Shown piece after piece: positions 3,001 through 36,368 of a stretch of 36,368 nt of DNA. The first letter of the stretch is position 1, and every line of letters begins with the position of its first letter. The stretch spans positions 1-36,368 of the forward strand of contig CALJWR010000090.1 of NCBI GenBank assembly GCA_937976685.1. Reading direction: 5' to 3'. Below the pieces are notes generated by a model. The model was given only the letters and a program-made list of their open reading frames with translations. It was not told the DNA's origin and did not search any database. Position numbers and translations under genes: made by a program. The stretch is from an uncultured Verrucomicrobiae bacterium (lineage in GTDB: Bacteria > Verrucomicrobiota > Verrucomicrobiia > Limisphaerales > J093).

Positions 3001-6000
3001 GGTCGGTGACCGTTCGTGAGTACCAGAACCTGCCGCCCCGTATCACTTCGTCGCCCGCGCTGATGGCGTCGCCCGGCGTCTTTTACTCCTACACCGTGAC
3101 GGCGGAGGATCCGAATCGTGACCCCATCACCTTCGCCCTCGCGGCGCAGCCGGCGGGGATGGCGGTCAATCCAAACAGCGGCGTGATTACGTGGGTGCCC
3201 ACGGCGGCGCAATTTGGCAGTCACCCGGTGACGGTGACCGCGTCCGATGGCAAGGGCGGCGCGGCCACGCAGCGCTTCGACGTGGTGGTGTTTGATGCTG
3301 CCACGGACGGACCGGTGGTTCGCCCGATCCCGGATCAGACCGTCATCGGCCCGGCGCCCTTTGTGGCCATCCCGCTCGACAACTACGTCTTCGATCCAAA
3401 CGACCCGACGGAGGCTCTGACTTGGTCGGTGACCGGGACCAGCCAGTTCACGGTCTCGATTGATGAGAACCGCGTCGCGACGGTGACCTATCCGGCCGGC
3501 ACCCTGGCCTCCGAGCGGCTGACCTTCCTGGCGACGGATCCGGCCGGGAAGTCCGGTTTCGCCGCCGCCACGTTCACCGTGCGCGGTCGGGACAACCCGC
3601 CCATCGCCGCGCTGGCGAATCTGTCCGACACCGAGACCACGCGGATTGAGACGGGATTCTTCGAGCTGCGCGGCACGGCGGACGATCCGGACGCAATTGA
3701 TCCGGTGGCATACCGGGTGACGCTGCACGACGAGAACGGCATGCAGGTGGCGGATGTCACGCCGAAGCCCGTGAACGCCTCGGGCTGGCGGGAAGGCCGC
3801 GTACCGCCGGGCGGAAGCCTCGGTACACTGGACCTTACCCTGGTGCGGAACGGCACCTACACCCTGAATCTGACCGTGCGGGGAGGTGGCCAAACGGTCG
3901 CCACCGCGGCCGAGATCGCTCTCGACACTTCGTTGAAGCTGGGACAGTTGACCTTCAGCGAGCAAGACGTCGTGCTGCCTCTGCGCGGCGTTGGATTGCG
4001 GGTGTTCCGGACCTACGACTCGTTGAACGCGACCGCGGCGGATTTCGGCTACTCGTGGAGCTACTCGGTTTATGACTTGGATGCCAAAATCAACGAACAG
4101 CGCGTGCGGGAGCAGGATCTGTTCGGTGAGTTCTTCAGTCTCCGCACAGGCGGGGGACGTGACGTTACGCTGGACATGCCCGACACCGGTCGGCGGGTGA
4201 CCTTCCGTTATTCGTTGCAACCGGGTGGCATGTTCCGGCTCCGAGCGGTCTGGACGGCGCCGCAGGGCGTCAACGCCACGCTGGTCCCGACCGTGTCGCC
4301 GAACATGGTCAAGCTGTTCAGTCTCCCCGCCTACTGGGAGGCGGCTGGACCTTATGTGGACGCCGACAATTTTGATTTCCCTGGCTTCATCCTGACGCTC
4401 CAGAACGGCACCCAATACCGCGTGGACCGCGAAGACCTGGGTGAGCGGATGATCACTGGGTCAGGCAGCGGATTGGGGAATTACGTTCACGCCTACGGCA
4501 AAGCTTTCCTCAGTCGGATCAGTGAGCCGGGCGGCGAACGGACTGACTTCGTCCGCGACGGGACGGCGCTGAAGAACATTGTCTCGTACGACAAGACGAG
4601 CGAACCGGCGGCGGGCATGTTGTTCCAACGGGACGCGCGGAACCGCATCCAGGCCATCTACACGCCGGAGGCTCTGAACGCCCAAGGTCTCCCTGTCGGA
4701 CCGCCGGCGGTGACTTACGAGTACGATGCCGCGGGCAATCTGATCAAGGTCAACAAGCTGACGGACGCCAGCGAGCCGGGGGCACCGGTCTATTCGACAA
4801 CCACCTATCGTTACGATCACCCCCGCTTCCCGCACTATTTGACCGAGGTTGTTGATCCACGAGGCGTTTCCGTTCTCAAATCGGAATTCGATGCCGCTGG
4901 CCGCCTGGTCGCGACCCGCGACGCGTTCGGTAATCGGACTTCGATCTCCCGGGACATTGCGGGCCGCACGGAGACCGTGTTTGATCAACTCGGCAATCCG
5001 ACGCAACTGACGTACGACGAGCGCGGCAACGTGGTGGCCCAGGTGGATGCCCTGGGGCGGACGACGCTGCGAACATTCGATGCAAGCAACCAGGTCCTGT
5101 CGGAGACGGACCCGCTCGGCAACACCACCCGGTTCACGTACGATGCCAGCGGCAACCGCACTTCCGTCACGGATCCGCTCGGTAACGTGACCCAGTTCCA
5201 GTTCGACGCCTCGGGCAATCCGGTGGCCGAGACCGATCCGTTGGGGCGCACCACGACCAACGAATTCGACCGCGAGGGGCGATACGTCGGCTCCACGGAT
5301 CCGCTGGGTAACCGGGTCACTGCTGCGTACGACGCGACCGGCCGCTCGATAACCATGAAGGACGCGACGGGCGCCACCGTGGGTCGCCTGGAGCGGGATG
5401 TCTCTGGCCGGTACACGTCTTTGGGCAGCGCGGGTTCGCCGCTGCAACTGGCGGGATTCGACTCGGCCGGCAACGCGACCAACACCGCGTATCAGTGGAT
5501 TAATCCCACCAACTTGGCGGACGTGCGCACGATTGCCACCACCCGGGTTTTCGACGCCAACGGCCAGGAGGTGCGCCGGATCCATCCCGACGGCCGCGAA
5601 AGCACCCTGGCCTACGACGCGTTGGGGCAGGTCGTGGCCGCGACCGATGTTCGCGGGAACACCACCCGCTACACCTACGACGCGGCCGGACGCCAGATCG
5701 AGACACGCTTCCCCGACGGCAACGTCGTGCGCACCGTTTATGACGCGGCGGGGCGGCCCGTGCTCGTCACGGAACGCCACGCACCCGGCACCCCCGCCAG
5801 TGCGACCCGCACCACCTACGACGCCGCAGGACGGGCCGGGGGCATCGAGTTGCTGAGCGATGTCATCGTTGAGATTGTCTCCCCAAGCGGGCTGACCCGT
5901 AGTGTGGTGACTGCCGGTGGCGCGGTGGTTGCCACCAACTGGGTTGCTTACGACGCGGCCGGGCGGATCACCAACCTCCTCAGTGAAGTCGGGGCTCGCG

Positions 6001-9000
6001 TCAGCTACGAGTATGACGCGGCCGGTCGAAAGATCGCGCAGGTGGACGCTCTGGGTAATCGCACCCGATTCGAGTACGACGCCGCCGGTCGCCTGACGGC
6101 GCTCCGGGCACCTTCGGGCGACGAGGCCCGCGTGCTGCATGACGCGCTGGGACGGGTGACGCGCACCGTCTTCTCTGACGGCACGTCCACGGAAATGAGC
6201 TACGACCCGGTTGGCAACATCGCTTCAGCGACCGATCCCGCCGGGCGCACTCGACGGTTCGAGTACGACGCGGCGCGCCGGATGACTGCCGCGGTCCTGC
6301 CGCCAGTGGTCAACCCGGAGAATGGCGGAGCCGTCGAGTCGCCGCGATTTGAATACACCTATGACCCCAACGGCAATCTGGCGGCCGTGCGGGATCCCAA
6401 AGGTCGGGTGACGGCGTTCACCTATGACATCTACAACCGTCCCAGTGCCAAGGTGATGCCCTTGGGGCAAACGCAGCAGTGGGTTCATTCGCCCGAAGGG
6501 CTCCTTCTGAGTCACAAGGATGCGGTCGGCCGGGTCCAGGAATTCAAGTACGACGCGCTTAATCGGATCACGAACAAGGTGATCCTTGCTTCCGGTTCAA
6601 TCGTGCCCCGTGAGGAGACCTATTTCCTCTACGACGCCCGGGGAAGACTGGCGCGAGTGGTGGAGAGTCGTGGTGCCACCGATTACGAGTATGATCTGAC
6701 TGGCAAACTGGCCGAGGTGGCTTCGCCCGAAGGCAAGATTCGCTATGAACACGATCCTATCACCGGTCGGCGTGCGCGCGTCTGGACCGACCATTCAGAC
6801 CTCCGCTACACCTACGACGCCGCCGGCCGGCTGCAGACCGTCACCGTGCTGAAGCGGCACGGCGAGGAACTGCCGGCGCCCGAGGTCACGCGCTTTACCT
6901 ACACGCCCAACGGTCAGAAGGAAACCGTGACCTTGCCGAACGGCATTCGCACGACTTACCGCTACGACTCGCTCAACCGGCTGATCTCGGTGGCACATAC
7001 CGGGCCAGCAGGGGGGCTGATCTCTGCGTTCAACTATCAGCTCGCGGCAGACGGGTTGCGGACGGGCGTTACCGAGGTCACGGCCGTGAATGGCGGCGGA
7101 TTCCGTACCAACCGGATTACCTATGCCTACGACGCCATCAAGCGGCTGATCCAAGAGCAGGCGGTGGATGTTGCCGATGGCACGGGCTACGCCGCCCACT
7201 ACACCTATGATCTCGCTGGCAATCGGCTGTCGCGAAGCGTCGCCGTCGGGACGCAAACGCTCTCGACCTTTTACGCCTACGATGAAAACGACCGCTTGTT
7301 GTGGGAGAGCAACGTTGTCTCCCGGGCGGGCGCGGGCGGAGCCGGGTTCTTGCGTGTACCGCCGCCCAGCCGCGGAGGAGCAAAGCTCGCCGCGCCGCCG
7401 CAGCCCGTTGCCTGGACATGGTACTTCATGGAGTCGCTGCCATATCTGCTTGCCCTCTCATGCCTGCTGCCGGTGGCGCTGATCCCCCGGCGGCTCTGGC
7501 GCCGGCTGCGGGTGTGGACCACCAGTTTGAGCCCGACCAACGCAGTCTTGCCGCGCTGCCTGGCGGGGGGCCTGGCAGCCCTAATGGCGCTGCTGCCTCT
7601 GGACCTGAACTCCATCGCCCAGCGAGCCGCTGCCTACGCGGCGCTCGATACGACAACGTGGGGGTTGGATGGGTCGGTCACGACTTACGACTACGACGCC
7701 AACGGGGCCGTGGTGCGGAAGACCACCACGGGACCGCGGGCCGAGGTGGTGGAATTCGAGTACGACCTCGCGGGTCGTCTGGTGGCCAGTACCACGACCC
7801 GGAACGACAGTGGGCGCGAAGTGATTGAAACGACTCGCCATACGCTCAACGCGCAGGGAGTGAGGGTTCGCACTGAAACGAGCACCTCGATTGACGGTCT
7901 GCCGGTGGGCACCACCACGAATGTCTTCATCGTGGACACGGTGAATCCAACCGGCGTTTCACAGGTGCTGGAGGAACTGCCAGCGGTGGGCGCAAAGCCG
8001 AGCGTCTCCTACGTACTCGGTGACGCACCGCTCGCGCAGACCCGCGACAACGGCGCTCTCACAACCCATTATCTCCTGCCAGATGGCCACGGTTCGACGA
8101 GGCAGGTGGCGGATGAGGCGGGGAGTGCCATTAGTTCTTTCGGCTATGACGCCTTTGGCATGATGCTGGGCGGTAACCCGACGTCCTCGAACCCCGCCAT
8201 GACAAAGGTTCTTCACACCGGCGAGATGTTCGATGCCGGGATTGGCCAGTACCATCTTCGCGCCCGCTCGTACGATCCGGGTACGGGTCGGTTCACGTCC
8301 GTGGATCCGGTGTTCGGCGAACTAAGTCTGCCGGAAACACTGCATCGCTACGTCTTCGGCGGGAACGACCCGGTGAACCAGATCGATCCCAGCGGTGAGT
8401 CGGTCATCATCAACATCGGAATTGCGGTCGCCATTTTCCTGGTCATCGGGGCTCTGATGTACGTCGGAAACCGTCCTTGGATTGGAATTGGGGGCGGCGA
8501 CTGGGAGGTGTTCAAGGCATGGCTGATTTATCCAGGTTGCCGGGCTTGGAGTCACGTTCTGTGGGGCAAGGAGCCCAAGGCGGCCAAGGAAACGGCCCGC
8601 CTCATGCGCCACTTCCAGGACTGGTACCGGGAAAACCAGTTTAAGATGCAGCACGTGATGGGTGGCGGACTGTATTTCTGGGCCCCGTGGGCGTGTGTGG
8701 ACCATGCGGTTCAGTTTGCCACTTACATCCGAAGCAAACGGAACGAGGATCCGAATGTGCCGTTGCTGACCTACTACCGGGTGCATTTCATGGGGCATGG
8801 AGAGGCCAGCATCGAATACGGCTTGTTGGGGTTGGTGCCGATTGTCGGTGACTTCCTGCCCGGCGAAAAGGGGGCGAAGCATACCTTCCTGATCGCTCGC
8901 AAGCGAGGTCTAGCCGCCAACAGTTCGGATGACATTGGCATCAACTTCGACAGTTGGTGGTACTACACCTACGCTCCCAACATGCCGACTTTTTACGGCG

Positions 9001-9059
9001 AGTCGGGTTACAAGGATTGGTCCAACATCACCTATTCCGAGTATTCGGACTTGTTCTGA
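3..9059 (+). CDS. Giant RHS/YD-repeat surface protein with PKD/CARDB ectodomain and variable C-terminal tip (5' partial)
   Basis: The frame is open to the left edge, so the true start lies outside; residues are counted from the GTG at 15. About 1-1310 is a string of extracellular modules: a fibronectin-like stretch (30-112), PKD domains with WNFGDG, WNWGDG and WDFGD cores (216-474) and one more near 817-908, two CARDB-like domains (574-694, 699-815), and Ig/cadherin-like repeats with the DPDGD motif. An RHS entry segment begins near 1331 (FRTYDSLN) and YD repeats run from about 1565 to 2730. The RHS core is clear near 2745-2790 (YHLRARSYDPGTGRFTSVDP, then NDPVNQIDPSG). After it comes a tip of about 220 residues with one hydrophobic helix and a possible Cys2894/His2956/Asp2979 triad. 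Unusually, two hydrophobic segments (about 2467-2530) interrupt the YD repeats. RHS proteins form a shell around a toxic C-terminal tip; the tip's activity here is inference. No immunity gene follows on the same strand. Confidence 0.93.
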   Translation, partial: PSASVFCTSIVFPELGLTNLTADDFTSAFVYERVVTDLRVRPKENKIQLTWTKAGDYAVVLRSTVGPQRGFVEIGRTESDYATFLDTNVVMGVEYFYRLLVYSFSRPEPLGVSDVRLAVSRPRDADNRPPAFLSTPLRLGQVGRLYEVTLEAVDPDGDALTFGILEGPTNLTVNPATGLVQFTPTEDQLGSQTLSFEVRAEGGRDVLTYSVVVFPADNAAPTASANGPYVAVLGEPVQFSSAGTADPDGHNLRIIWNFGDGRSSTNANPVHVYTAAGHYLASLFVNDGYGGTATARANVSILRPNRAPTAVIAGGPAFAIRLGEPLTLDGTGSFDLDGDELTFTWNWGDGESDAEAPSRAAHTYAAQGSFDGQLLVVDGRGGVGTANFTVTVGPANRPPVVVATVSDPSPLALTEITFDATATTDADGDPLTFEWDFGDRSRTTGPLVTHTFREVGDYVATLRVRDGRGGEAWETFAITARNSPATISSQPPLLVRAGQPYRYVPAVTDLNGDRFTFELAQGPATMTVNPGTGAMDWLPGDADVGPNPVVLRVTDSRGDATDQSWTLVVTTPLGPEMDLEPLAIVMTNVTVDPQTLALGGTVRVDFRNNGADEVPVPFTVTVFVDADANGQFSTNTDPVVAVGNVPAGLRQGFVAWIEIGLRGQALFAGAPLSAYLDGENVVPEYDEANNIRRAGFNANTNVPPVVDLTASFLRVDRSGLPEKARLTARLGNAGLVPVAAGVPLAFYNGDPLAGGALLGVAHSAGELRVGTFEDLTIEWLGPPIAAHTVFVVADDQGDGTGLYPEISETNNRFSAAADLTANEPPVADAGPDQRVAIGEYAGFNGRGSRDPEGRPLTYRWSVISIPVGSRAFLNAAATEQAWLQPDVVGEYVVQLIVNDGVNDSQPVTVRVSADDPSANHPPAITSTPAFEGMTTVLYEYALQANDPDGDPLKYRLGQAPAGMTVDPNSGLIRWTPTAAGSFFVQAIVEDNRGAGRYQSWSVTVREYQNLPPRITSSPALMASPGVFYSYTVTAEDPNRDPITFALAAQPAGMAVNPNSGVITWVPTAAQFGSHPVTVTASDGKGGAATQRFDVVVFDAATDGPVVRPIPDQTVIGPAPFVAIPLDNYVFDPNDPTEALTWSVTGTSQFTVSIDENRVATVTYPAGTLASERLTFLATDPAGKSGFAAATFTVRGRDNPPIAALANLSDTETTRIETGFFELRGTADDPDAIDPVAYRVTLHDENGMQVADVTPKPVNASGWREGRVPPGGSLGTLDLTLVRNGTYTLNLTVRGGGQTVATAAEIALDTSLKLGQLTFSEQDVVLPLRGVGLRVFRTYDSLNATAADFGYSWSYSVYDLDAKINEQRVREQDLFGEFFSLRTGGGRDVTLDMPDTGRRVTFRYSLQPGGMFRLRAVWTAPQGVNATLVPTVSPNMVKLFSLPAYWEAAGPYVDADNFDFPGFILTLQNGTQYRVDREDLGERMITGSGSGLGNYVHAYGKAFLSRISEPGGERTDFVRDGTALKNIVSYDKTSEPAAGMLFQRDARNRIQAIYTPEALNAQGLPVGPPAVTYEYDAAGNLIKVNKLTDASEPGAPVYSTTTYRYDHPRFPHYLTEVVDPRGVSVLKSEFDAAGRLVATRDAFGNRTSISRDIAGRTETVFDQLGNPTQLTYDERGNVVAQVDALGRTTLRTFDASNQVLSETDPLGNTTRFTYDASGNRTSVTDPLGNVTQFQFDASGNPVAETDPLGRTTTNEFDREGRYVGSTDPLGNRVTAAYDATGRSITMKDATGATVGRLERDVSGRYTSLGSAGSPLQLAGFDSAGNATNTAYQWINPTNLADVRTIATTRVFDANGQEVRRIHPDGRESTLAYDALGQVVAATDVRGNTTRYTYDAAGRQIETRFPDGNVVRTVYDAAGRPVLVTERHAPGTPASATRTTYDAAGRAGGIELLSDVIVEIVSPSGLTRSVVTAGGAVVATNWVAYDAAGRITNLLSEVGARVSYEYDAAGRKIAQVDALGNRTRFEYDAAGRLTALRAPSGDEARVLHDALGRVTRTVFSDGTSTEMSYDPVGNIASATDPAGRTRRFEYDAARRMTAAVLPPVVNPENGGAVESPRFEYTYDPNGNLAAVRDPKGRVTAFTYDIYNRPSAKVMPLGQTQQWVHSPEGLLLSHKDAVGRVQEFKYDALNRITNKVILASGSIVPREETYFLYDARGRLARVVESRGATDYEYDLTGKLAEVASPEGKIRYEHDPITGRRARVWTDHSDLRYTYDAAGRLQTVTVLKRHGEELPAPEVTRFTYTPNGQKETVTLPNGIRTTYRYDSLNRLISVAHTGPAGGLISAFNYQLAADGLRTGVTEVTAVNGGGFRTNRITYAYDAIKRLIQEQAVDVADGTGYAAHYTYDLAGNRLSRSVAVGTQTLSTFYAYDENDRLLWESNVVSRAGAGGAGFLRVPPPSRGGAKLAAPPQPVAWTWYFMESLPYLLALSCLLPVALIPRRLWRRLRVWTTSLSPTNAVLPRCLAGGLAALMALLPLDLNSIAQRAAAYAALDTTTWGLDGSVTTYDYDANGAVVRKTTTGPRAEVVEFEYDLAGRLVASTTTRNDSGREVIETTRHTLNAQGVRVRTETSTSIDGLPVGTTTNVFIVDTVNPTGVSQVLEELPAVGAKPSVSYVLGDAPLAQTRDNGALTTHYLLPDGHGSTRQVADEAGSAISSFGYDAFGMMLGGNPTSSNPAMTKVLHTGEMFDAGIGQYHLRARSYDPGTGRFTSVDPVFGELSLPETLHRYVFGGNDPVNQIDPSGESVIINIGIAVAIFLVIGALMYVGNRPWIGIGGGDWEVFKAWLIYPGCRAWSHVLWGKEPKAAKETARLMRHFQDWYRENQFKMQHVMGGGLYFWAPWACVDHAVQFATYIRSKRNEDPNVPLLTYYRVHFMGHGEASIEYGLLGLVPIVGDFLPGEKGAKHTFLIARKRGLAANSSDDIGINFDSWWYYTYAPNMPTFYGESGYKDWSNITYSEYSDLF

Positions 9060-25894: not shown

Positions 25895-26461
25895 ATGCCG
25901 AGCGACCCGAACTTGCTGTGCCGGCCGGAAGCTGAACGCGAAGCCCGCGGCCGGTGGAATCCGTACCTCGTCGGCGCAGGCATCGGCGTGCTGAGTTGGA
26001 TCGCGTTTGCGGTGGCCAACCAGCCCTTGGGCATCTCGACGGCAATCTCTTCCGCCGCCAGCGTCTGCGCCTTGCCGGTGCTGGGTTCCGATGGCGTGGC
26101 CACGAATGCCTATTGGGCGAAGTTCCCGCTGAAGTGGGACTATGGCATGGTCTTTTTGCTGGGCACGTTCCTGGGCAGCCTTGCCAGCGTGCTGGTCAGC
26201 CGAACCTTCCAGGTCGAAACCGTACCGGCGACCTGGCGGGAACGGTTCGGGAACGCACCCGGCCGAAGGCTGGCGGCGGCGTTTCTCGGTGGCGTCATCA
26301 TCATGTACGGGGCGCGGCTGGCTGGCGGGTGTACCAGCGGACACGGCATCAGCGGCTCGCTCCAACTGGCGGTCAGCAGTTGGGTTTTCTTCCTCACGCT
26401 CTTTGCTGCAGGTCTGGTCACGGCCGCCGTGTTGTTCCGGGACAGAAGCCGAGGACACTGA
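25895..26461 (+). CDS. YeeE/YedE-family sulfur transporter, first half (PmpA-like)
   Basis: 188 residues starting at the ATG at 25895, 7 bp after pabA. Hydrophobic helices include YLVGAGIGVLSWIAFAVANQ, YGMVFLLGTFLGSLASVLV, LAAAFLGGVIIMYGARLAGG and SSWVFFLTLFAAGLVTAAVL. The signature GGCTSGHGISG near residues 146-156 carries the conserved cysteine of the YeeE/YedE (TsuA-type) family. TsuA-type proteins pass thiosulfate or related sulfur species inward via conserved cysteines. Here the family is split over two consecutive genes, as in PmpA/PmpB pairs, so the two products probably form one transporter in the inner membrane. Substrate inferred only. Confidence 0.88.
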   Translation: MPSDPNLLCRPEAEREARGRWNPYLVGAGIGVLSWIAFAVANQPLGISTAISSAASVCALPVLGSDGVATNAYWAKFPLKWDYGMVFLLGTFLGSLASVLVSRTFQVETVPATWRERFGNAPGRRLAAAFLGGVIIMYGARLAGGCTSGHGISGSLQLAVSSWVFFLTLFAAGLVTAAVLFRDRSRGH

Positions 26462-26483
26462 TCGCTGAACACGCGAACCCACG

Positions 26484-27056
26484 ATGAAACTTCCACTCTC
26501 CGGCGACGCGGCACTCTGGCTGGCTCTGGTGCTTGGGGCCGCCTTTGGCTGGCTGCTCCATCGGGGCGGCGTGACGAACTACAACGTCATCGTGAACCAG
26601 TTCCGCTTCCGCGACTTCACCGTGCTCAAGGTGATGTTCACGGCGATTATTGTCGGAGGCGTCGGGGTGCTGGCGCTGACCCAGACCGGCCATGCGCAGT
26701 TCCACATCAAACCCGCGAACATGCTGGGCGTGACGTTCGGCGCTGCGTTGTTCGGCGTCGGCATGGTCCTGTACGGCTACTGTCCCGGAACCGGGGTGGC
26801 CGCGATCGCCACCGGCAGCCTGCACGCGCTGGTGGGCGTGATCGGGATGCTGGCGGGCGCGGTCCTGTACGCGCTGAGCTTCGCCTGGGTCGAGCCGCAC
26901 ATTCAGAAGATGGCAGCGCTGGGCAAGTTGCGGTTGCCGGAAGTGACGGGGATTCCCGATTGGGGCTGGTTCGCAATTCTGGCCGCTATCGCGGGGGTTG
27001 TGTTTTGGCTGATCGAGACCAAAACCCGACCCACGGGCGCCGCGAGCCGGCAGTAG
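26484..27056 (+). CDS. YeeE/YedE-family sulfur transporter, second half (PmpB-like)
   Basis: 190 residues, ATG at 26484, 22 bp after the first half. Helices include AALWLALVLGAAFGWLLHRG, LKVMFTAIIVGGVGVLAL, MLGVTFGAALFGVGMVLYGY, ALVGVIGMLAGAVLYALSF and WFAILAAIAGVVFWLIE. The second signature YGYCPGTGVAAIATG holds the conserved cysteine matching GGCTSGHG of the other half. Together the pair makes one pseudo-twofold YeeE/YedE unit. No rhodanese, sulfur dioxygenase or BigR-type regulator lies beside it, though a CoADR-rhodanese is encoded 16 kb away. The gene ends exactly where the IS4 remnant begins, so the insertion apparently landed at or just after its stop codon. Confidence 0.88.
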   Translation: MKLPLSGDAALWLALVLGAAFGWLLHRGGVTNYNVIVNQFRFRDFTVLKVMFTAIIVGGVGVLALTQTGHAQFHIKPANMLGVTFGAALFGVGMVLYGYCPGTGVAAIATGSLHALVGVIGMLAGAVLYALSFAWVEPHIQKMAALGKLRLPEVTGIPDWGWFAILAAIAGVVFWLIETKTRPTGAASRQ

Positions 27057-27059
27057 GGC

Positions 27060-27960
27060 CGGGCCGCCCGCACGCGGATTTCCCGCCGTTCGAGCCAGGC
27101 AGTGATGACCCGCGGCTGGCCCTTCTGCCGCACCAGCACGCGCACAATCCGGCTGCCCGCACGCCTCAGCCCAGCGATGCCGACGGCACATCACCCGATG
27201 GGGCACCAGCACGCGCACAATCCGGCTGCCCGCACGCCGCCGGCGCACGACCGGCCCACGAATTGGCGGGCGCGCTCGAATCAGGAAATGGCTGCCCACC
27301 TTCTGACCGGCGGCCGGGGCCGCCGCCACGAAGGCCGCGCTGCCGTGCAGGCGGTCGGCCAGCCAGAGGGCCTCGGCCGGCAGTTGGGCCAACCACTCCA
27401 AGGCCCGCTCCGACTGGCCCGCCCGCTGGCGGCGGCGAGCGGAGAGGGCAGGCCCAGTTCGAGCAGGACGCCGGTGGTGACCCGGGCGACCGCGGCGCGA
27501 CCGCGGCGGCTTTGGACCTTGCGCGGGTCGGCGTGGACCCGGGGGGAGTGTTGGTCAGGCTGAACTGGGTGCCGTCCACCGCGACCAACCGCCAGCTCCG
27601 CCGGAAGGCGTCGGGCTGGGCGGTGGCGACGGCCCGGGCGCGCAGGCCCAGACGCACCAATTCGGCGACGCCCTCCCCCCCCAGGGCAGGCGGGCGCGGC
27701 GCTCGCTCCAGGCACTGTCGGCCAGGGCGTCGTCGAAGAGTTGGCGACCGTGCTGGGCCAGGCTGCCGGCGGCGTTCATGACGTGGAAGACCAGCATCGG
27801 GAGCCGGCGGGCCAGGGGCACGCGCGGGCGGTGTCCGCGGCGTTTGGGCAAGGCGGGCAGGATGGAGCCGAAGGCCTCGTGGAACGCGGCCAGAAAGCCC
27901 GGGCACCCGGGCGTCGCAGCACGGAAGGCTTGTTTCGCCGCATTGTTCTCATCTCCTTTG
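27060..27960 (-). pseudogene. Degenerate, C-terminally truncated IS4-family transposase
   Basis: Transposase-like protein appears in successive frames on the minus strand. The N-terminal part (FLAAFHEAFGSILPALPKRR, then LPMLVFHVMNAAGSLAQHGR) is in one frame. RRSWRLVAVDGTQFSLTNTP (first DDE aspartate region) is in a second, and RAAVARVTTGVLLELGLPSP in a third. WLAQLPAEALWLADRLHG (second aspartate) with QKVGSHFLIRAR is in a fourth stretch, and RVITAWLERREIRVR after a 73-bp insertion. Shifts fall near an 8-C run (27675-27682), a 6-G run (27541-27546), near 27400, and at the direct repeat. The C-terminal third with the catalytic Glu is missing; homology stops beside the YeeE stop codon. No terminal inverted repeats were found. 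It is non-functional. Confidence 0.85.
27130..27238. repeat. 36-bp perfect direct repeat, two copies 73 bp apart, within the IS4 remnant
   Basis: Identical 36-bp copies (beginning GCACCAGCACGCGCACAATC) lie at 27130-27165 and 27203-27238, separated by 37 bp of unrelated sequence. The sequence encodes transposase residues (RIVRVLV on the minus strand), so it is a duplication-plus-insertion that shifts the frame (73 is not a multiple of 3), not a regulatory repeat. Confidence 0.95.
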
Positions 27961-28018
27961 GTAGCACAGGAGGCCAGATAAATACGGTCCACCCCTCGAA
28001 GTCCCGAAAGGGATTAGC

Positions 28019-28156
28019 CTAAACCGGATATTTCATGGCCATGGTAGCAGCCGCCGTGAGGCGGCGTTCCGAGCGGCGTGGGCGCGCCTCCGCCGGCTCA
28101 TGCCGGCCGCCACAGTCTGCGCGCGTTTCCCGCGAACTGTGAAATACCCGGGTTAG
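28019..28156. mobile_element. MITE-like element with 17-bp terminal inverted repeats
   Basis: The ends CTAAACCGGATATTTCA (28019-28035) and, inverted, CTAACCCGGGTATTTCA (28140-28156) match at 15 of 17 positions. The 138-bp interior has no reading frame but two perfect hairpins: GCCGCC-GTGA-GGCGGC (28050-28065) and GCCGGC-TCAT-GCCGGC (28092-28107). The right end overlaps the HAD gene and provides its TAA stop codon. No clear target-site duplication is seen. It is probably a non-autonomous element or an extragenic palindromic repeat family; no cognate transposase is in the window. Confidence 0.65.
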
Positions 28157-28869
28157 CCGAGCACCACCGCAAGCAAACGGTCCCAGTCGCTCCCCTCGGT
28201 ATCGGGTGTCGTGGTGCCGACTTGAAACGTCTGCCAACCGTGCCGCTGCGCGGGTTCCAGGTCGTTATCGAGCCGGTCGCCCACCATCAGCATTTCCCCG
28301 GGACCGATGCCCATCGCCTCGCAACGCGCGGTGAGGATCCGGAACACGTGTGGGTCAGGTTTGCTGAAACCGTGTTCAAACGACCAGAAGCAAAGGGCGG
28401 ATTCGAAGACATCCATCGCCATCTGCTGGGAGGCCAAACCTTCGCGCAGTTCCCGCAAACTGTACGCTTGCGCGTTGGACGCGATCCCGAGGCGGCAGCC
28501 CGCCCGGTGCAGGGTCCCAAGCGCCGCTGCGGCTTTCGCCGACATCGCGGTCGTGCGGCCGGTCTGGGTTTGGCGATAGACGAACTCCGCCCGTAACTCC
28601 GGCCAAAGCTTCGGGAACGCAGGCAGAATCTCGGCGACCACCGTCGGCCACTGAACTTCCGGGAATGGAATGCCTGCCGCTCGGGCCGCCTCGTGGTGGC
28701 GGACGACCGCGCGACCGCAAGCAACGGAAAAGTCCAGCCGGCTGAAGGGCGGCTCGCTGCCGAAAAGCTCCCGAAACAGAGCGCTCCACCGGACGTCCGC
28801 ATCGGGCGGCGGCGGACCGACCTTCAGCAGCGTGTTGTACAGGTCAAAGATGACGGCGCGAGTCTTCAT
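28153..28869 (-). CDS. HAD-superfamily hydrolase, candidate phosphoglycerate-glycoside phosphatase
   Basis: 238 residues. The ATG at 28869 overlaps the TGA of the GT4 gene (ATGA), which decides this start over a GTG at 28884. HAD motifs: motif I IFDLYNTLL with nucleophile Asp9, motif II IASNAQ, motif III Lys in FSKPDPHVF, motif IV MVGDRLDNDL, and a helical cap after motif I. The residue two after the nucleophile is Tyr11 instead of the usual acid Asp, as in haloacid dehalogenases; this weakens a phosphatase call. Next to GT4 and GT81 genes, its likely job is removing the 3-phosphate from glucosyl-3-phosphoglycerate (GpgP-like), an inference from context. The stop codon lies inside the inverted repeat of the MITE-like element. 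Confidence 0.85.
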   Translation of the reverse strand: MKTRAVIFDLYNTLLKVGPPPPDADVRWSALFRELFGSEPPFSRLDFSVACGRAVVRHHEAARAAGIPFPEVQWPTVVAEILPAFPKLWPELRAEFVYRQTQTGRTTAMSAKAAAALGTLHRAGCRLGIASNAQAYSLRELREGLASQQMAMDVFESALCFWSFEHGFSKPDPHVFRILTARCEAMGIGPGEMLMVGDRLDNDLEPAQRHGWQTFQVGTTTPDTEGSDWDRLLAVVLG

Positions 28870-30428
28870 GTGTCCGGGTGCCACAGGAGGGGGAAAAGGT
28901 TATCGCCCGTGAGCTTGGCCGCCAGCAGTTCCCGCTGAACGCGGGTTGAGTCCACCAGCTTGGGCACGGCGTATGGTGCCAAAGGCGCCAGCTCAAAAAA
29001 CCGACGAGCGTAGGCGCGCCCGCCCAGCCACCGGGCGGCCGTCCGGGGCCAGGGAGTCAGCCGGAGTTTCCCGGCAGCGGCCCATTCCCGCCAGGCAACG
29101 AGAAACAGGTTGAGCGGCCTGCATTTCGCCCAGGATTCGGCGGCGGGCTGGGCAAGAACCTCGAGCTGCGCCGTCAGGGTCAGACGGCTGAACGGAATTG
29201 GTTTGGGCGCACTTCCCGCCGCCAGCAAGGCCGGCCGCGGCACCTCCCGTTGCACGGCCCGGGGCATCTGGGACCGCCACGCCTTGAACAGTCGCTCCTG
29301 CCGGCGCCTCTCTGCGGGCCAGTCAAACAACTCGGGCGCGATCAGGATCTCCGCGTAGCTCTGAGGAAACGAAAATCCGAACTTGGCGAGGTCGGGCGCC
29401 ACGTTGGGAAGCTGGCGCGCAAGCAGCGGACGGTGAGCCGCCGAAGCCTCGAGGTACGGCAGTCCAAATCCCTCCTGAACCGAGGTCAGCAATACCGCCT
29501 CGCTGGCTGCCAGCAACTCGGGCACAGTCGGCTGCTGCCGCTCTTCGCGTTCCAAGACGGCCAGTCGGAGCCGCCAGCCCTGGGTCCGGGCCGCGTGCTT
29601 GAGGGCGGCGGCATAGGGCGCCTCCGGCGGCGAGCTGACCCCCGCCGTCGTCACCAGCCACGCTTCGGGCCGCAACCAGCGGGTCAGCAGGAGCGCCTCG
29701 GCGATGTTCTTGCGCCGGAGCAGCCGGCAGGGAAGCAGCCAGACCGGCGCATCGTCCCGCAATTCCTTGCACAACCAGTCCCGCGCGGCTTGCTCGCGCT
29801 CGCGGGACACCGGAGGCCACGGCGCCACCGGATTCGGCAACCACCCGGCGCGGGGACCGAAGTGGCGTTGAAGGAGGCGGGCGTCGCTTTCGTTGATCGC
29901 GGCATGCGCAATCCACGGCGACGCGGGGAGCACGGCGCGGGCCAGCCCGGCAAGCGTCCGGCCGCCGGCCTCCCGGATTCCGGCGTACTGGGGCCAACGA
30001 TTGTCGAACCACCAGTCGTGGTGATGCAGGATCAACGGGATGTTCCCCGCGTGGCACAGCCGGCCGAGTTCACGCGCGAGCCGCACATTCCGCCCGAGAC
30101 CCAAGTTGTGCGCCCAGACTAGTGGGGCATCGCCGCAAAGGTGCAACAAGTGGGTCAATCCGCGCCGGATCGCAGCCGATGAATTCCCTTGCGAACCGGG
30201 CGCCTCGGACGAATAGCCGAAGGAGGAGTGGACGAAGGTCTCGACTTCCGCACCGGACACCGTCCGCGCGATCCCTCGAAGCCAGTTCTCATCGGGAGCC
30301 TCCCCCGCGGCAAGAACGACGCGGGGGATTTGTTTCGGCGCGTGGGCGACCAGTTGCGGCAGGGCCAGTTCGATGACTCGCCGGACGCCGCCGGGGCGGA
30401 AGTGGTGATGCAAAGCCGCCAGGATCAC
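28866..30428 (-). CDS. GT4-family glycosyltransferase, candidate mannosylglucosylglycerate synthase
   Basis: 520 residues from a GTG at 30428; the conserved start ALHHHFRPGGVRRVIELALP follows at once, so no later start fits. GT-B features: the N-terminal Gly-rich loop PGGVRR, acceptor-domain segment LILHHHDWWFDNRWPQY, the sugar-nucleotide domain WLLPCRLLRRKNIAEALLL, and the GT4 E-x7-E motif in QEGFGLPYLEASA (about residues 317-328). A C-terminal extension of about 130 residues beyond the usual GT4 length is rich in Arg, Pro and Leu and has no recognised domain. GT4 enzymes with this N-terminus include mannosylglucosylglycerate synthases, which use GDP-mannose and glucosylglycerate. That specificity is inferred from the HAD and GT81 neighbours, not shown by residues. 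It overlaps the HAD gene by 4 bp. Confidence 0.85.
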   Translation of the reverse strand: MILAALHHHFRPGGVRRVIELALPQLVAHAPKQIPRVVLAAGEAPDENWLRGIARTVSGAEVETFVHSSFGYSSEAPGSQGNSSAAIRRGLTHLLHLCGDAPLVWAHNLGLGRNVRLARELGRLCHAGNIPLILHHHDWWFDNRWPQYAGIREAGGRTLAGLARAVLPASPWIAHAAINESDARLLQRHFGPRAGWLPNPVAPWPPVSREREQAARDWLCKELRDDAPVWLLPCRLLRRKNIAEALLLTRWLRPEAWLVTTAGVSSPPEAPYAAALKHAARTQGWRLRLAVLEREERQQPTVPELLAASEAVLLTSVQEGFGLPYLEASAAHRPLLARQLPNVAPDLAKFGFSFPQSYAEILIAPELFDWPAERRRQERLFKAWRSQMPRAVQREVPRPALLAAGSAPKPIPFSRLTLTAQLEVLAQPAAESWAKCRPLNLFLVAWREWAAAGKLRLTPWPRTAARWLGGRAYARRFFELAPLAPYAVPKLVDSTRVQRELLAAKLTGDNLFPLLWHPDT

Positions 30429-30532
30429 AGCGCGGAGGCTAGTCCGGCCCCCGGCGGGAAGCGAAGCTTTCCTCGTTTCCTAAACCCGTCGCACGTTTCC
30501 GTTGACCAGCCGGTGGCCGGGTGATTACTTGA

Positions 30533-30737
30533 CTTGCGGGTTTCCGGTGAAATCCCGCAAGGGTCTGAGGCGTGGAACCTCAGAGGTCCGTCAGGATGGT
30601 CGGGCCGCCATCCGCTGGACCGTGTCATCCGGTGCATCGCGGACTCGCGATGCGGCGGCGACGCGGGCGTCGGCGGCGCAGAAACTGTGCGAACCTCAGC
30701 CCCCGCGTTCCGCGACGCCGTCAGCCGCATCGGGCTG
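30533..30737 (+). ncRNA. Highly structured segment, candidate 5' leader / regulatory RNA upstream of the GT81 operon
   Basis: Consecutive hairpins fill this stretch. H1: 30533-30544 with 30549-30561, 12 bp with one bulged T and a CGGT loop. H2: 30564-30570 with 30578-30584, 7 perfect bp. H3: GGTCC/GGACC (30585-30589, 30617-30621) enclosing GGATGG/CCATCC (30594-30599, 30608-30613). H4: GCATCGCG-GACT-CGCGATGC, 8 perfect bp at 30634-30653. H5: GGCGTCG/CGACGCC (30666-30672, 30713-30719) enclosing GCGCAG-AAA-CTGTGC. H6: CAGCC/GGCTG (30722-30737). It has no protein-like frame and ends 37 bp before the ATG at 30775. It matches no riboswitch, tRNA, tmRNA, RNase P or SRP RNA consensus I know. Strand is ambiguous because hairpins are symmetric; plus is assumed from the downstream genes. 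Confidence 0.5.
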
Positions 30738-30774
30738 CAAAGCAAGGGCGACACACAATCGAACCCTGCGAGTC

Positions 30775-31155
30775 ATGCAAAGGGCCCATTATGTGCAACT
30801 GATTATGTTCGGCATCGCCGTCCCACTTCTGGCTTATTTCACGCGCCACTTCTCACCGGGAGCGGGGAACACCGTGTATCTGGTCGGGTTCGTTGGCGGT
30901 GGCCTCTGTTTCGTCTGGGGAGTGCTGGGGCTGATCGGTTTCCGGCGGGCCTGGCCGGCGATGGTCACCCTGCTGCTGACCGCCTTCGGGACGCTGCCGC
31001 CCGCCGCCCGCCTGTGGTTGGGGGACGATCCCGCCGCGAGCGACCGTCGGTGGGCGGCGCTGCTGGCAACGGGCATCCTCGCGTTGGCGGTCGGCCTGAT
31101 CGCGCAGATTTCGCATTCCGTACAAGGAACCTTCGCCCGCTCCACGAATGTCTGA
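30775..31155 (+). CDS. Small four-helix integral membrane protein of unknown function
   Basis: 126 residues from the ATG at 30775; the frame upstream to 30502 runs through the structured segment and is not protein-like. Four hydrophobic helices are seen: VQLIMFGIAVPLLAYF, TVYLVGFVGGGLCFVWGVLG, AWPAMVTLLLTAFGTLPPAA and AALLATGILALAVGLIAQIS. No family is recognised. Its last 8 bp overlap the GT81 gene start (ATGTCTGA), so the two are surely co-transcribed and probably translationally coupled. A role with the glycosyltransferase, for example in membrane association or osmotic sensing, is only a guess from this arrangement. No Shine-Dalgarno sequence is visible before the ATG. Confidence 0.75.
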   Translation: MQRAHYVQLIMFGIAVPLLAYFTRHFSPGAGNTVYLVGFVGGGLCFVWGVLGLIGFRRAWPAMVTLLLTAFGTLPPAARLWLGDDPAASDRRWAALLATGILALAVGLIAQISHSVQGTFARSTNV

Positions 31156-32359
31156 CTTCTTCCAAACCGGCGCGGTGGCCACGCTGCATCGGCTGGGTAC
31201 TTCCGGCATCCCCCGCATGGAGCGTGAGTTGGTGGAATTCGGAAAGGAATGTCCAGTCGCGCTGGTGTTGCCCTGTCACGTTCGCGAGCTCGGTTCCAAG
31301 GCTCTGCTCAGCATCGTGCGCTGTCTGAAGTCGGTGCCCTACCTGGCGCAAGTGGTCGTGGGCGTGGACGGCGCGACGCGGCGCAGCGATTTTGATCGGG
31401 CCCGCCGCATTTTCCGCCAGCTCCCTCAACCTACCAGCCTGCTCTGGAACGACGGTCCGCGGATGCGCGCGCTCTTCGCGCACCTCGCCGAATCGGACCT
31501 CGGCGCCGGCCCCGGCGGCAAGGGCCGCAACGTGTGGATTTGCTTCGGCTACGTGCTGGCCAGCGACACGGCCCGCATGGTGGCGGTGCATGATTGCGAC
31601 ATCGCCACCTACTCGCGGGAGTTGCTGGCGCGACTGGTCTATCCTGTGGCGCATCCGAGCTTGGGGTTTGATTTCTGCAAAGGTTATTACGCCCGGGTGA
31701 CCGACCGCCTCAATGGCCGCGTCATGCGCCTGCTGGTGACGCCCCTGCTGCGGGCGCTCAAGAGTATCATCGGCCACCATCCGTACCTCGTGTATATGGA
31801 CACGTTCCGTTACCCGCTGGCCGGCGAGTTCGCGATGGATCTGGACCTGGTGCGGCGCGTCCGCATTCCCCATGACTGGGCGCTCGAGGTGGGATTGCTC
31901 TCGGAGGTGTTCCGCAACTGCGCGCCCCGCGCCATCTGCCAGAGCGAGCTGTGCGAGAACTATGAGCACAAGCACCAGGAGATCTCGCCACGCGATCCGG
32001 ACAAGGGTCTGAACAAGATGGCCACCGACATCGCCAAGACGGTCTTCCGTCGCATGGCGGCCGAGGGCATCCGGCTGGACTCCGGCTTGTTTGACACCCT
32101 ACTCAGTGCCTACAGCCGCCAGGCGGAGGACACCCTGCGATTCTACAACGCCGACTCCGTCATCAACGGGCTGCGGTATCCGCGCCATGAGGAGGAAAGC
32201 GCCGTGTCCACGTTCGTGCGCAGCATCCGCCGGGCCGCCCGCGACTTTCAGGACGACCCCCTGTGGTCACCGCTGATCTCAAATTGGAACCGGGTCCAGT
32301 CCGCGTTGCCCGATTTCGGTCGCGAACTCCACAAAGCCGTCGCGCAGGATAACGCGTGA
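31148..32359 (+). CDS. GT81-family glycosyltransferase, glucosyl-3-phosphoglycerate synthase-like (GpgS)
   Basis: 403 residues, ATG at 31148 inside the end of the membrane-protein gene. GT-A features in GpgS order: VALVLPCHV for nucleotide binding, then GGKGRNVWICFGYVL (Lys125, the PGKG-like loop). Next is the metal-binding DxD in VAVHDCDIATY (Asp149, Asp151), then FDFCKGYYARV followed by GRVMRLLVTPLLRAL, and the GT81-diagnostic YPLAGEFAMDLDL. Then come HDWALEVGLLSEVF (near residue 247) and the late histidine region NYEHKHQ (His274, His276). GpgS transfers glucose from an NDP-glucose to 3-phosphoglycerate, the first step to the compatible solutes glucosylglycerate and mannosylglucosylglycerate. 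It is longer than the actinobacterial GpgS (about 320 residues) by N- and C-terminal extensions. GT4 and HAD genes stand divergently beside it. Confidence 0.85.
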   Translation: MSDFFQTGAVATLHRLGTSGIPRMERELVEFGKECPVALVLPCHVRELGSKALLSIVRCLKSVPYLAQVVVGVDGATRRSDFDRARRIFRQLPQPTSLLWNDGPRMRALFAHLAESDLGAGPGGKGRNVWICFGYVLASDTARMVAVHDCDIATYSRELLARLVYPVAHPSLGFDFCKGYYARVTDRLNGRVMRLLVTPLLRALKSIIGHHPYLVYMDTFRYPLAGEFAMDLDLVRRVRIPHDWALEVGLLSEVFRNCAPRAICQSELCENYEHKHQEISPRDPDKGLNKMATDIAKTVFRRMAAEGIRLDSGLFDTLLSAYSRQAEDTLRFYNADSVINGLRYPRHEEESAVSTFVRSIRRAARDFQDDPLWSPLISNWNRVQSALPDFGRELHKAVAQDNA

Positions 32360-34269: not shown

Positions 34270-36368
34270 TCACTCATGGATCTCGTAAACGCGGCCGTCC
34301 ATGACGAACTTTACGTTGGGCCCCAACGCCAGCCACGGACGCACGCGGGATTTCCGGGCCAGCAACTCGAAATACTCGGGGGAACCGAACTGGATGCGCT
34401 CGATTTTGGCCGTCGGCAGCCACTGAATCTGCGAGTCAACCCAGTGATTCCCGTTTTGGAAGAATGTCCGGCCGTTCAAATGGCGACTCTGCTCGCCGTA
34501 GCGGATCACTTCGGCGGCGAGGGCGCCGGGCCGAGTCGAGGCAAGCACCCTGCTGGGTATAGCGCCCGGACTGGTCCGCACGACCAAGCCGTTTGAGGGG
34601 AGCGTGGTGAGAGCCGTCGCGGCCTCCTGACGGCCAGCCGCCAAGGCGGAATCGGCCTGCAGGGCGTTCCGGTTGACGAGGCCATAGCGGGCGGCGGCGA
34701 CAGCGGACTGTCCGGAGACGTCTCGCTTCAGGCCCGCGTAAGCCGCCTCCGTGGCTTGGAAGGCGGTGAAGTTGGTGGCGAACTGGGGCAGCGACTGAAG
34801 CACGAGCGGCACGCCGCGGGCGCGTTCGTCCTCGTGGATGAGATAGGCCGTGTACGGGGTCACCAGACCGTATTTGCGGGCCAGCTCGACCACCTCGTCC
34901 TTGAGTTCCTTGCTCTCGCCGCGCAGACGGATCTCATCGAGCAAGTGGCCGATCCGGCGCGTTGCCCAGAGCCGGGGAATGAAATCATATTCGATGGCGG
35001 ATCGGGTGAACTCGCTCGGGAACTCGAAGCGGCGGGTCTGCTGACTGAGTTCGCCACCAAGGGTGAGTGTGCCCCGACCCTCGCCCCGGTAACGCCCGAC
35101 GGCGACCAGTTGCTCGCCCTTGAACAGGTCGGGCAGGGGCGACGGGTAAAGGCTGGAGACGCGGATGCCGTCGGGCAAAACCAGCGTCGGATTGGCCAGC
35201 ACCGGGTCTTTGATCTTCGCGAAGAAGTTCGAGACCTTAACCTCGAGATCCTCGTCGGGCAGCACGTAGGCGCTGGTGGCCCGCGTCGTCTCGGTGATCC
35301 GGTCCAGCAGGCGCGTGTTCACGTCCGTCCCGATGCCGAAGCAGAAGACGCGGGTTTTGCCGTGGCTGGCCTGGGTCACGGTTCTGACGATGGTTTCGAC
35401 GTCGGTGGGGCCCACAGTGGGCAGGCCGTCGGTCAGGAAGATGACAAGGAAAGGCCGGCCGCTGTCGGCGGGTCGGAGCGCGAGGGCGCGCTGGAGGGCC
35501 TCGTGAATGGCGGTGCCGCCGAGGGCCCGCAGGTCCTGGATGTAGCGGTCAGCGCGGTCGCGATGGGTGCGGTCTGCCGGGACGAGGTTGCCAAACAAGG
35601 CGTCGGACTCGGTTGCGAAACGGATGACCTCAAAGCGATCGTCGTCATGGAGCGACGCCACGCAGAACTGCAACGCCTTTTTGGCCTGCTCCAGTTTCTT
35701 CCCGGCCATCGAGCCGGAGACGTCCTGCACGAAAACTACATCCTTGGGCAGGACTTTTTCCTCTTTGAGCTCCATCGCGGGCGAAACCATCAGGAGGAAG
35801 AAGCCGTCCTCGCCGTCCGGCCGGTACGTCAGGACGCTGGCCCCAACATCGCCGGCGGCGAGCGCGTACAAGAGCTGGAAGTCGGTGTCCGGCTTCACCT
35901 CCTTGCTCTCGAAACCCACGGTGGCCTTGTGATCCCCGTGCCGACGCACCTCGATCGGATGGCTGGGCGAGTAAATGGACTTGAGCGGGCGGGAGCTCTC
36001 GAGTTCGAGCTTGAGGCTGACCAAGGGAATGGGCCTGGCCGAAAACTTCTCGGTGCTGAGCGGGTACACGTAGCCGACCAGTCCGGAATCGGCGCGCAGC
36101 ACCTGCGTATAGCGGAGCTGGATGTGTTTCCTGCCGCGTGGCTCGATGGGGAAGATGCGGGCCTTGAAGAGGTCGCGGTCGGCGTATTCGAGCAGGGCCG
36201 GATCACGCAGTGAGCGGACGATGTCTTCGTACATCTCCCGGGCCTTGTCGGCCGGGAGCAATTCGGCGGCGACCTGTTTGCCGTTCACGTCCATGCTGAA
36301 GCCGTCAAGCTGGCCGCCGCGAGGGAGGGGGAACAGGTAGGTCCCCTCGAGCTGACGGTCAGTGGGGT
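34270..36368 (-). CDS. VIT domain / von Willebrand factor A domain protein (5' partial)
   Basis: The frame continues beyond the right edge: before Met at 36294 it reads QLEGTYLFPLPRGGQLDGFS, the middle of a VIT domain, so the N-terminus is missing. VIT continues to about 130 residues after that Met (ARIFPIEPRGRKHIQLRYTQ). A vWA domain with an intact MIDAS follows: FVQDVSGSM, GGTAIHEAL and IFLTDGLPTVG. The rest (about 280 residues) is beta-rich and then helical with an Ala-rich part, and ends at FVMDGRVYEIHE without LPXTG or a membrane anchor. Related proteins (inter-alpha-trypsin-inhibitor heavy-chain-like; marine sortase-target type) are exported and bind metal-dependently to other proteins; the signal peptide must lie off-window. 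It is convergent with the pseudopilin gene. Confidence 0.93.
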   Translation of the reverse strand, partial: PTDRQLEGTYLFPLPRGGQLDGFSMDVNGKQVAAELLPADKAREMYEDIVRSLRDPALLEYADRDLFKARIFPIEPRGRKHIQLRYTQVLRADSGLVGYVYPLSTEKFSARPIPLVSLKLELESSRPLKSIYSPSHPIEVRRHGDHKATVGFESKEVKPDTDFQLLYALAAGDVGASVLTYRPDGEDGFFLLMVSPAMELKEEKVLPKDVVFVQDVSGSMAGKKLEQAKKALQFCVASLHDDDRFEVIRFATESDALFGNLVPADRTHRDRADRYIQDLRALGGTAIHEALQRALALRPADSGRPFLVIFLTDGLPTVGPTDVETIVRTVTQASHGKTRVFCFGIGTDVNTRLLDRITETTRATSAYVLPDEDLEVKVSNFFAKIKDPVLANPTLVLPDGIRVSSLYPSPLPDLFKGEQLVAVGRYRGEGRGTLTLGGELSQQTRRFEFPSEFTRSAIEYDFIPRLWATRRIGHLLDEIRLRGESKELKDEVVELARKYGLVTPYTAYLIHEDERARGVPLVLQSLPQFATNFTAFQATEAAYAGLKRDVSGQSAVAAARYGLVNRNALQADSALAAGRQEAATALTTLPSNGLVVRTSPGAIPSRVLASTRPGALAAEVIRYGEQSRHLNGRTFFQNGNHWVDSQIQWLPTAKIERIQFGSPEYFELLARKSRVRPWLALGPNVKFVMDGRVYEIHE

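Follow-up and report, generated by a model that had tools for sequence, protein, structure and literature searches.

Does a divergent gene cluster in an uncultured Verrucomicrobiae bacterium make a compatible solute derived from glucosylglycerate, and if so, which genes carry out which steps and what switches them on? The cluster lies on contig CALJWR010000090.1 (assembly GCA_937976685.1), in a stretch of 36,368 nt that we analysed as a whole and refer to as the window. A sequence-only reading had proposed a glucosylglycerate or mannosylglucosylglycerate locus with a GpgS-like glycosyltransferase of family GT81, a HAD hydrolase in the role of GpgP, a GT4 glycosyltransferase in the role of MggS, and a small membrane protein. 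The assignment to the glucosylglycerate family is favored by a GpgS match, by neighbors in related genomes that recur and resemble glucosylglycerate phosphorylase and MggS, and by a regulatory RNA, but the enzyme names MggS and GpgP have to be given up.

Genes and leader RNA of the locus

On the forward strand, the gene for the GT81 enzyme (31148..32359; 403 aa) follows the gene for a small four-helix membrane protein (30775..31155; 126 aa; identified by its open reading frame and hydropathy). Upstream of this unit, on the same strand, Rfam cmscan found an nhaA-I RNA (RF03057; 30561..30613), which had been overlooked before. The reverse strand encodes an uncharacterized GT4 glycosyltransferase with a C-terminal extension (28866..30428; 520 aa) and its partner, a HAD hydrolase of subclass IA (28153..28869; 238 aa from the ATG at 28869). 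A check of the open reading frames placed all four genes where the sequence-only reading had them, and both couplings are exact: the ATGA at 28866-28869 holds the stop codon of GT4 and the start codon of HAD, and the ATG of GT81 at 31148 lies within the membrane-protein frame, which ends at 31155 (an overlap of 8 nt).

The chemistry of the GpgS family, which is the formation of glucosyl-3-phosphoglycerate (GPG), is established. The window's GT81 matches the model for GpgS of the Methanococcoides type (NF040724) over its full length (314.5 bits; residues 5-402 on model positions 3-399). Its DxD and GKG motifs are kept, and the residues involved, which are D149 and D151 (DCD) and G124, K125, and G126 (the GKG loop), are invariant among 14 GT81 homologues. 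The protein's weak matches in the PDB are mostly to GpgS and MpgS structures, and the solved GT81 relatives match in the catalytic and acceptor region. Unlike curated GpgS, it scores well under the equivalog cut-off of 700 bits. Based on the match and the motifs, we predict that it is a GpgS-like glucosyl-3-phosphoglycerate synthase, as had been proposed. Separately, many verrucomicrobial GT81 matches lie inside open frames of about 1000 aa (for example, in G071, G109, and G243), and the length of these frames suggests fusions of GpgS with another enzyme. In another genome (G010; loci L071 and L072), GT81 and GT4 are both broken by apparent frameshifts, which could reflect decay or an assembly error.

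We rejected the identification of the window's GT4 as MggS, because it scores just 19.5 bits against the MggS model (NF041101), where the cut-off is 640 bits. Its profile matches are to generic GT4 only. The AlphaFold model (pLDDT 93.6) has a GT-B fold, and the closest structures found by Foldseek are GlgM, WaaG, HepE, and BshA, without a specific match. Best hits to lipopolysaccharide or other glycan enzymes had been named in advance as evidence against the pathway; such hits are present, but they are generic and weak. With its E-x7-E motif, donor-phosphate Arg and Lys, and GT-B fold, the protein has the features of a retaining GT-B enzyme: E319, R238, and K240 are invariant and E327 is nearly invariant across 38 sequences. 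This GT4 family is conserved across several phyla, and a search of plasmids with it found no match. Related genomes also encode a second, MggS-like GT4 of 429 aa, which we call MGS and which scores 206-245 bits against the MggS model. The window's GT4 resembles MggS and MGS in its HHHD and E-x7-E motifs, and a profile-profile comparison with the MGS family gave a probability of 99 over 232 columns. It differs from MggS in its low score, its length of 520 aa, and its C-terminal extension, and it coexists with MGS in the same genomes.

HAD phosphatases typically have D-x-D as motif I, and D-x-Y is the pattern of dehalogenases. The window's HAD lacks the second Asp: motif I is D-x-Y-x-T in 17 aligned close homologues and in a wider set, and D-x-Y was seen in every homologue. 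The acidic Mg-binding motif IV is present (GDRxDND, or GNDxxND in distant homologues). Profiles of the Pfam and NCBIfam type identify the protein as a generic member of subclass IA, and with its model (pLDDT 93.6), Foldseek returns phosphatases and dehalogenases alike. Judging from these motifs, D-x-Y is unusual for a phosphatase and is the main weakness of the proposal that HAD is one. The expected role in the pathway is like that of MpgP/GpgP, but those are HAD-IIB proteins. The window's HAD does not match their model (TIGR01486), and none of 58 related genomes has a protein over its cut-off, so we rejected the idea that HAD is a GpgP of the known type.

The nhaA-I RNA scores 46.5 bits (gathering threshold, 37; E = 4.6e-7), and both of its stems are complete. 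In an alignment of 20 RNAs, the pairs of P1 and P2 are kept, with covariation. The GGUCGGGCC loop is conserved as well, and the U in it is kept throughout the set. The six pairs of P1 are formed in 120 of 120 cells, as compared to a mean of 94 and a maximum of 102 after shuffling, and several of the changes are two-sided; the 3' strand of P1 was picked among a few registers, which somewhat favors this count. According to the main text of PMC9646797, the class consists of ON switches that sense Li+, and its rare variants sense Na+. The window's RNA is like these Li+-I and Na+-II riboswitches in its above-threshold score, its two stems, and its loop, and by class membership it is a candidate Li+/Na+ riboswitch. 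In that main text, most targets are nhaA or other cation transporters, and trehalose-6-phosphate synthase is an occasional one; unlike these, GpgS is not named there.

We count at least 12 loci with the RNA upstream of the GT81 unit, among them those of seven related genomes and four other loci. In five genomes without an intervening membrane protein, we measured a distance of 16-68 nt to GT81. In the window and two other genomes (G008 and G011), the RNA is 5' of a membrane protein-GT81 unit. In G025, it lies near a contig end beside GT4, and it probably precedes the same genes. An nhaA-I RNA over threshold is missing at over half of the GT81 loci in relatives. In a distant family (L224), the RNA precedes an operon of a peptidase, a GpgS of another type, GT4, and HAD. 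Its other targets in the order include MscS channels, Na_H_antiport_3, CitMHS_2, and relatives of the window's membrane protein.

Hydropathy indicates four hydrophobic segments in the membrane protein from the ATG at 30775, which is the likely start because relatives align from there. No Pfam or NCBIfam model matches over its cut-off. We rejected the protein as a fixed component of the pathway because few GT81 loci contain it. The sequence-only reading had known of no described pathway that includes it. Members of its family, which has no Pfam or NCBIfam assignment, recurrently occupy the first position 3' of nhaA-I RNAs elsewhere (four loci). Another kind of small membrane protein, marked by a shared CL.RLYWM..GN stretch, is 3' of nhaA-I RNAs at five loci in other verrucomicrobial families. 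At five loci whose target encodes a membrane protein or MscS, a possible short leader ORF starting with MK-x-R-x-x-W-P begins about 20-30 nt 3' of the aptamer. At L184:1476-2369, there is a GT4-like remnant, divergent to an nhaA-I RNA and a membrane-protein gene, and an intact GT4 is present elsewhere in that genome.

Distribution of GT4-HAD, GpgS, and MGS

Across 58 genomes (the bacterium's own and its relatives), GT81 was found in 22 and GT4 in 19. All 19 genomes with GT4 have GT81 as well, mostly in the same divergent layout, so the arrangement is beyond chance. A lack of conserved synteny had been named as a finding that would speak against the locus, and it did not arise. In three genomes with GT81 (G024, G041, and G056), no GT4 was detected. 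Among close relatives, HAD adjoins GT4 wherever the contig extends far enough.

We also considered all 69 GT4 loci that we fetched, some of which are redundant. HAD is directly downstream of GT4 in 45 of these and fused to it in 5; another 5 loci are at a contig edge, and in the remaining 14, HAD is not nearby. The fusions are single proteins of 706-800 aa from five verrucomicrobial genomes. Either of two types of GpgS lies within 3.5 kb of GT4 in 47 of the 69 loci. The window's type of GT81 is mostly absent from the other Verrucomicrobiota and Planctomycetota, and it is very rare among genomes with GT4 and MGS in the survey of the phylum. We considered whether GT4-HAD might substitute for GpgS in such genomes, but dropped this idea, as a GpgS of the actinobacterial type (NF010496; 384-391 bits, cut-off 262) shares an operon with GT4 and HAD. 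The presence of another type of GpgS in these operons implies that the pair follows GpgS activity and not one lineage of GpgS. As a side observation, six GpgS-GT4-HAD operons open with an M20-like amidohydrolase of about 390 aa.

Of 384 sampled genomes of Verrucomicrobiota, 76 have GT4, 56 have MGS, and 49 have both (for both, GT4 only, MGS only, and neither, 49/27/7/301; P = 1e-34, Fisher exact test that ignores kinship). GT4 and MGS are within 10 kb of each other in 34 cases and are divergent in 32 of those 34; a peptidase-like gene and the actinobacterial type of GpgS lie between them. Genomes that have GT4 without MGS contain GpgS-GT4-HAD, GpgS-GT4, or GT4-HAD fusions. Because GT4 keeps this company where MGS is missing, GT4-HAD appears to track GpgS and not MGS.

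A scan of named genomes for MGS found 80 loci, in Verrucomicrobiota, Planctomycetota, Kiritimatiellota, Desulfobacterota, Spirochaetota, and others. Many of these loci hold GT4-HAD-MGS, with or without the phosphorylase and GT81. GT4, HAD, and MGS form one compact run at three loci, and at another (L123), the genes in a row are GT4, HAD, MGS, the phosphorylase, a second MGS, and GT81. In a planctomycete (L157), HAD adjoins MGS and GT4 is not nearby, which would fit a HAD that serves MGS. MGS was not found in the bacterium's own draft genome, which is 80% complete.

In sister genomes, MGS and a GH13_18 enzyme recur beside GT81. A TETN motif and a Glu in loop A mark the glucosylglycerate phosphorylases of GH13_18 (PMC7178133). 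All 10 GH13_18 sequences that we examined have both, including a fragment from the bacterium's own genome. In this respect, the neighbors in sister genomes and the fragment are like 2-O-glucosylglycerate phosphorylase (PMC7178133). The setting differs in the bacterium itself, where the gene lies outside the window and is split over two contig ends.

Proposed pathway and its alternatives

The class of pathway is known. The reading that we prefer, and to which we give about an even chance, is that the locus makes a solute derived from glucosylglycerate in response to ions, and that GT4 and HAD are a glycosyltransferase/phosphatase pair that acts on GPG. Monovalent cations probably turn on the first step: with a rise in its ion, the nhaA-I RNA in the leader would increase membrane-protein and GpgS expression. 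GpgS would convert NDP-glucose and 3-phosphoglycerate to GPG, the divergent GT4 would add a second sugar to GPG, and HAD would then remove the phosphate from GT4's product. In sister genomes, the enzyme that resembles MggS and MggA would provide a second branch, and glucosylglycerate phosphorylase would provide recycling. We infer the acceptor, the donor sugar, the order in which GT4 and HAD act, and the ion that is sensed. A sugar transfer to a phosphorylated intermediate, followed by dephosphorylation, seems likeliest because the GT4-HAD pair travels with GpgS rather than with MGS and occurs as a single protein in some genomes. The same logic is reportedly that of the MggA/MggB route of Petrotoga mobilis, and it is said to operate in Rhodopirellula baltica as well; the likeness of the window's genes to this route lies in gene logic.

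How much of this would be new? It is possible, but we would not count on it, that the GT4 (as distinct from MggS and MggA) and the D-x-Y HAD form a new two-enzyme step that converts GPG to a new glycosyl-glucosylglycerate osmolyte, and that the Na+/Li+ riboswitch, which would control this step directly, joined two non-orthologous GpgS operons in independent events. Alternatively, GT4-HAD might simply be the MggA/MggB of Rhodopirellula and Petrotoga. The locus would then encode an ordinary mannosylglucosylglycerate pathway in which only the regulation is new. This overlaps with our preferred reading and differs only in claiming known enzymes. The gene logic fits the phosphorylating route (GpgS, MggA, and a phosphatase), and planctomycetes share the cluster of HAD, MGS, and phosphorylase. 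We nevertheless think this unlikely: it is MGS and not the window's GT4 that matches the MggS model, and a relative of Rhodopirellula has one MGS beside HAD, with GT4 absent within 10 kb.

We are just as doubtful that HAD is the missing GpgP, converting GPG to glucosylglycerate, and that GT4 decorates free glucosylglycerate or belongs to a side branch. As canonical HAD-IIB MpgP/GpgP is absent from the 58 relatives, some phosphatase is needed; GpgS-GT4-HAD operons exist, and the phosphorylase implies that free glucosylglycerate is present in the cell. Yet HAD tracks GT4 more tightly than it tracks GpgS, as the five fusions also illustrate, and two of the genomes with GT81 (G024 and G056) have no match to GT4, so they probably rely on another phosphatase. 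Much less probable is that the GT4-HAD operon belongs to the synthesis of a surface glycan, or to some other pathway, and is a mere neighbor. Surface glycan synthesis commonly involves GT4 enzymes, and the structures nearest to this one include no specific match, but the linkage and co-occurrence with two types of GpgS, MGS, and the phosphorylase extend across phyla, and we found no recurring glycan export genes at GT4-HAD loci. It is similarly improbable that the RNA match is due to chance, or is what is left of a decayed RNA, and has no control over the GT81 unit. The window's RNA is 161 nt from the start of the membrane protein, which is farther than where the RNA abuts GT81, and its score is among the lower ones in the set; against this, the E value is low, the stems are complete and covarying, strand and position before GT81 are conserved in many genomes, and the same class precedes ion and osmotic genes.

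If our preferred reading is correct, the enzyme that opens an osmolyte pathway is directly linked to a riboswitch class for alkali cations. The main text of the Li+ riboswitch paper raised a link to osmolytes for trehalose only (PMC9646797). We found no description of this regulation or of the GT4-HAD pair in the literature that we searched. Our reading also offers a role that can be tested for a widespread but uncharacterized pair of genes, which is found in 76 of the 384 sampled verrucomicrobial genomes and in several other phyla, and it concerns bacteria whose osmoadaptation is little known.

Other features of the window

Beyond the end of HAD, positions 27100-28000 contain broken frames between sulfur-transport genes and HAD; one of these frames resembles an IS4-type transposase by eye, and it has no Pfam match. 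The two neighboring genes at 25895-27056 each correspond to half of a sulfur transporter of the YeeE/YedE type. At 3-9059, a giant open reading frame (about 3000 aa) combines PKD and Ig-like domains with RHS repeats on their C-terminal side. At the other end of the window, positions 34270-36294 encode a VIT-VWA protein that resembles the marine proteobacterial sortase target protein (262 bits, as compared to a cut-off of 552).
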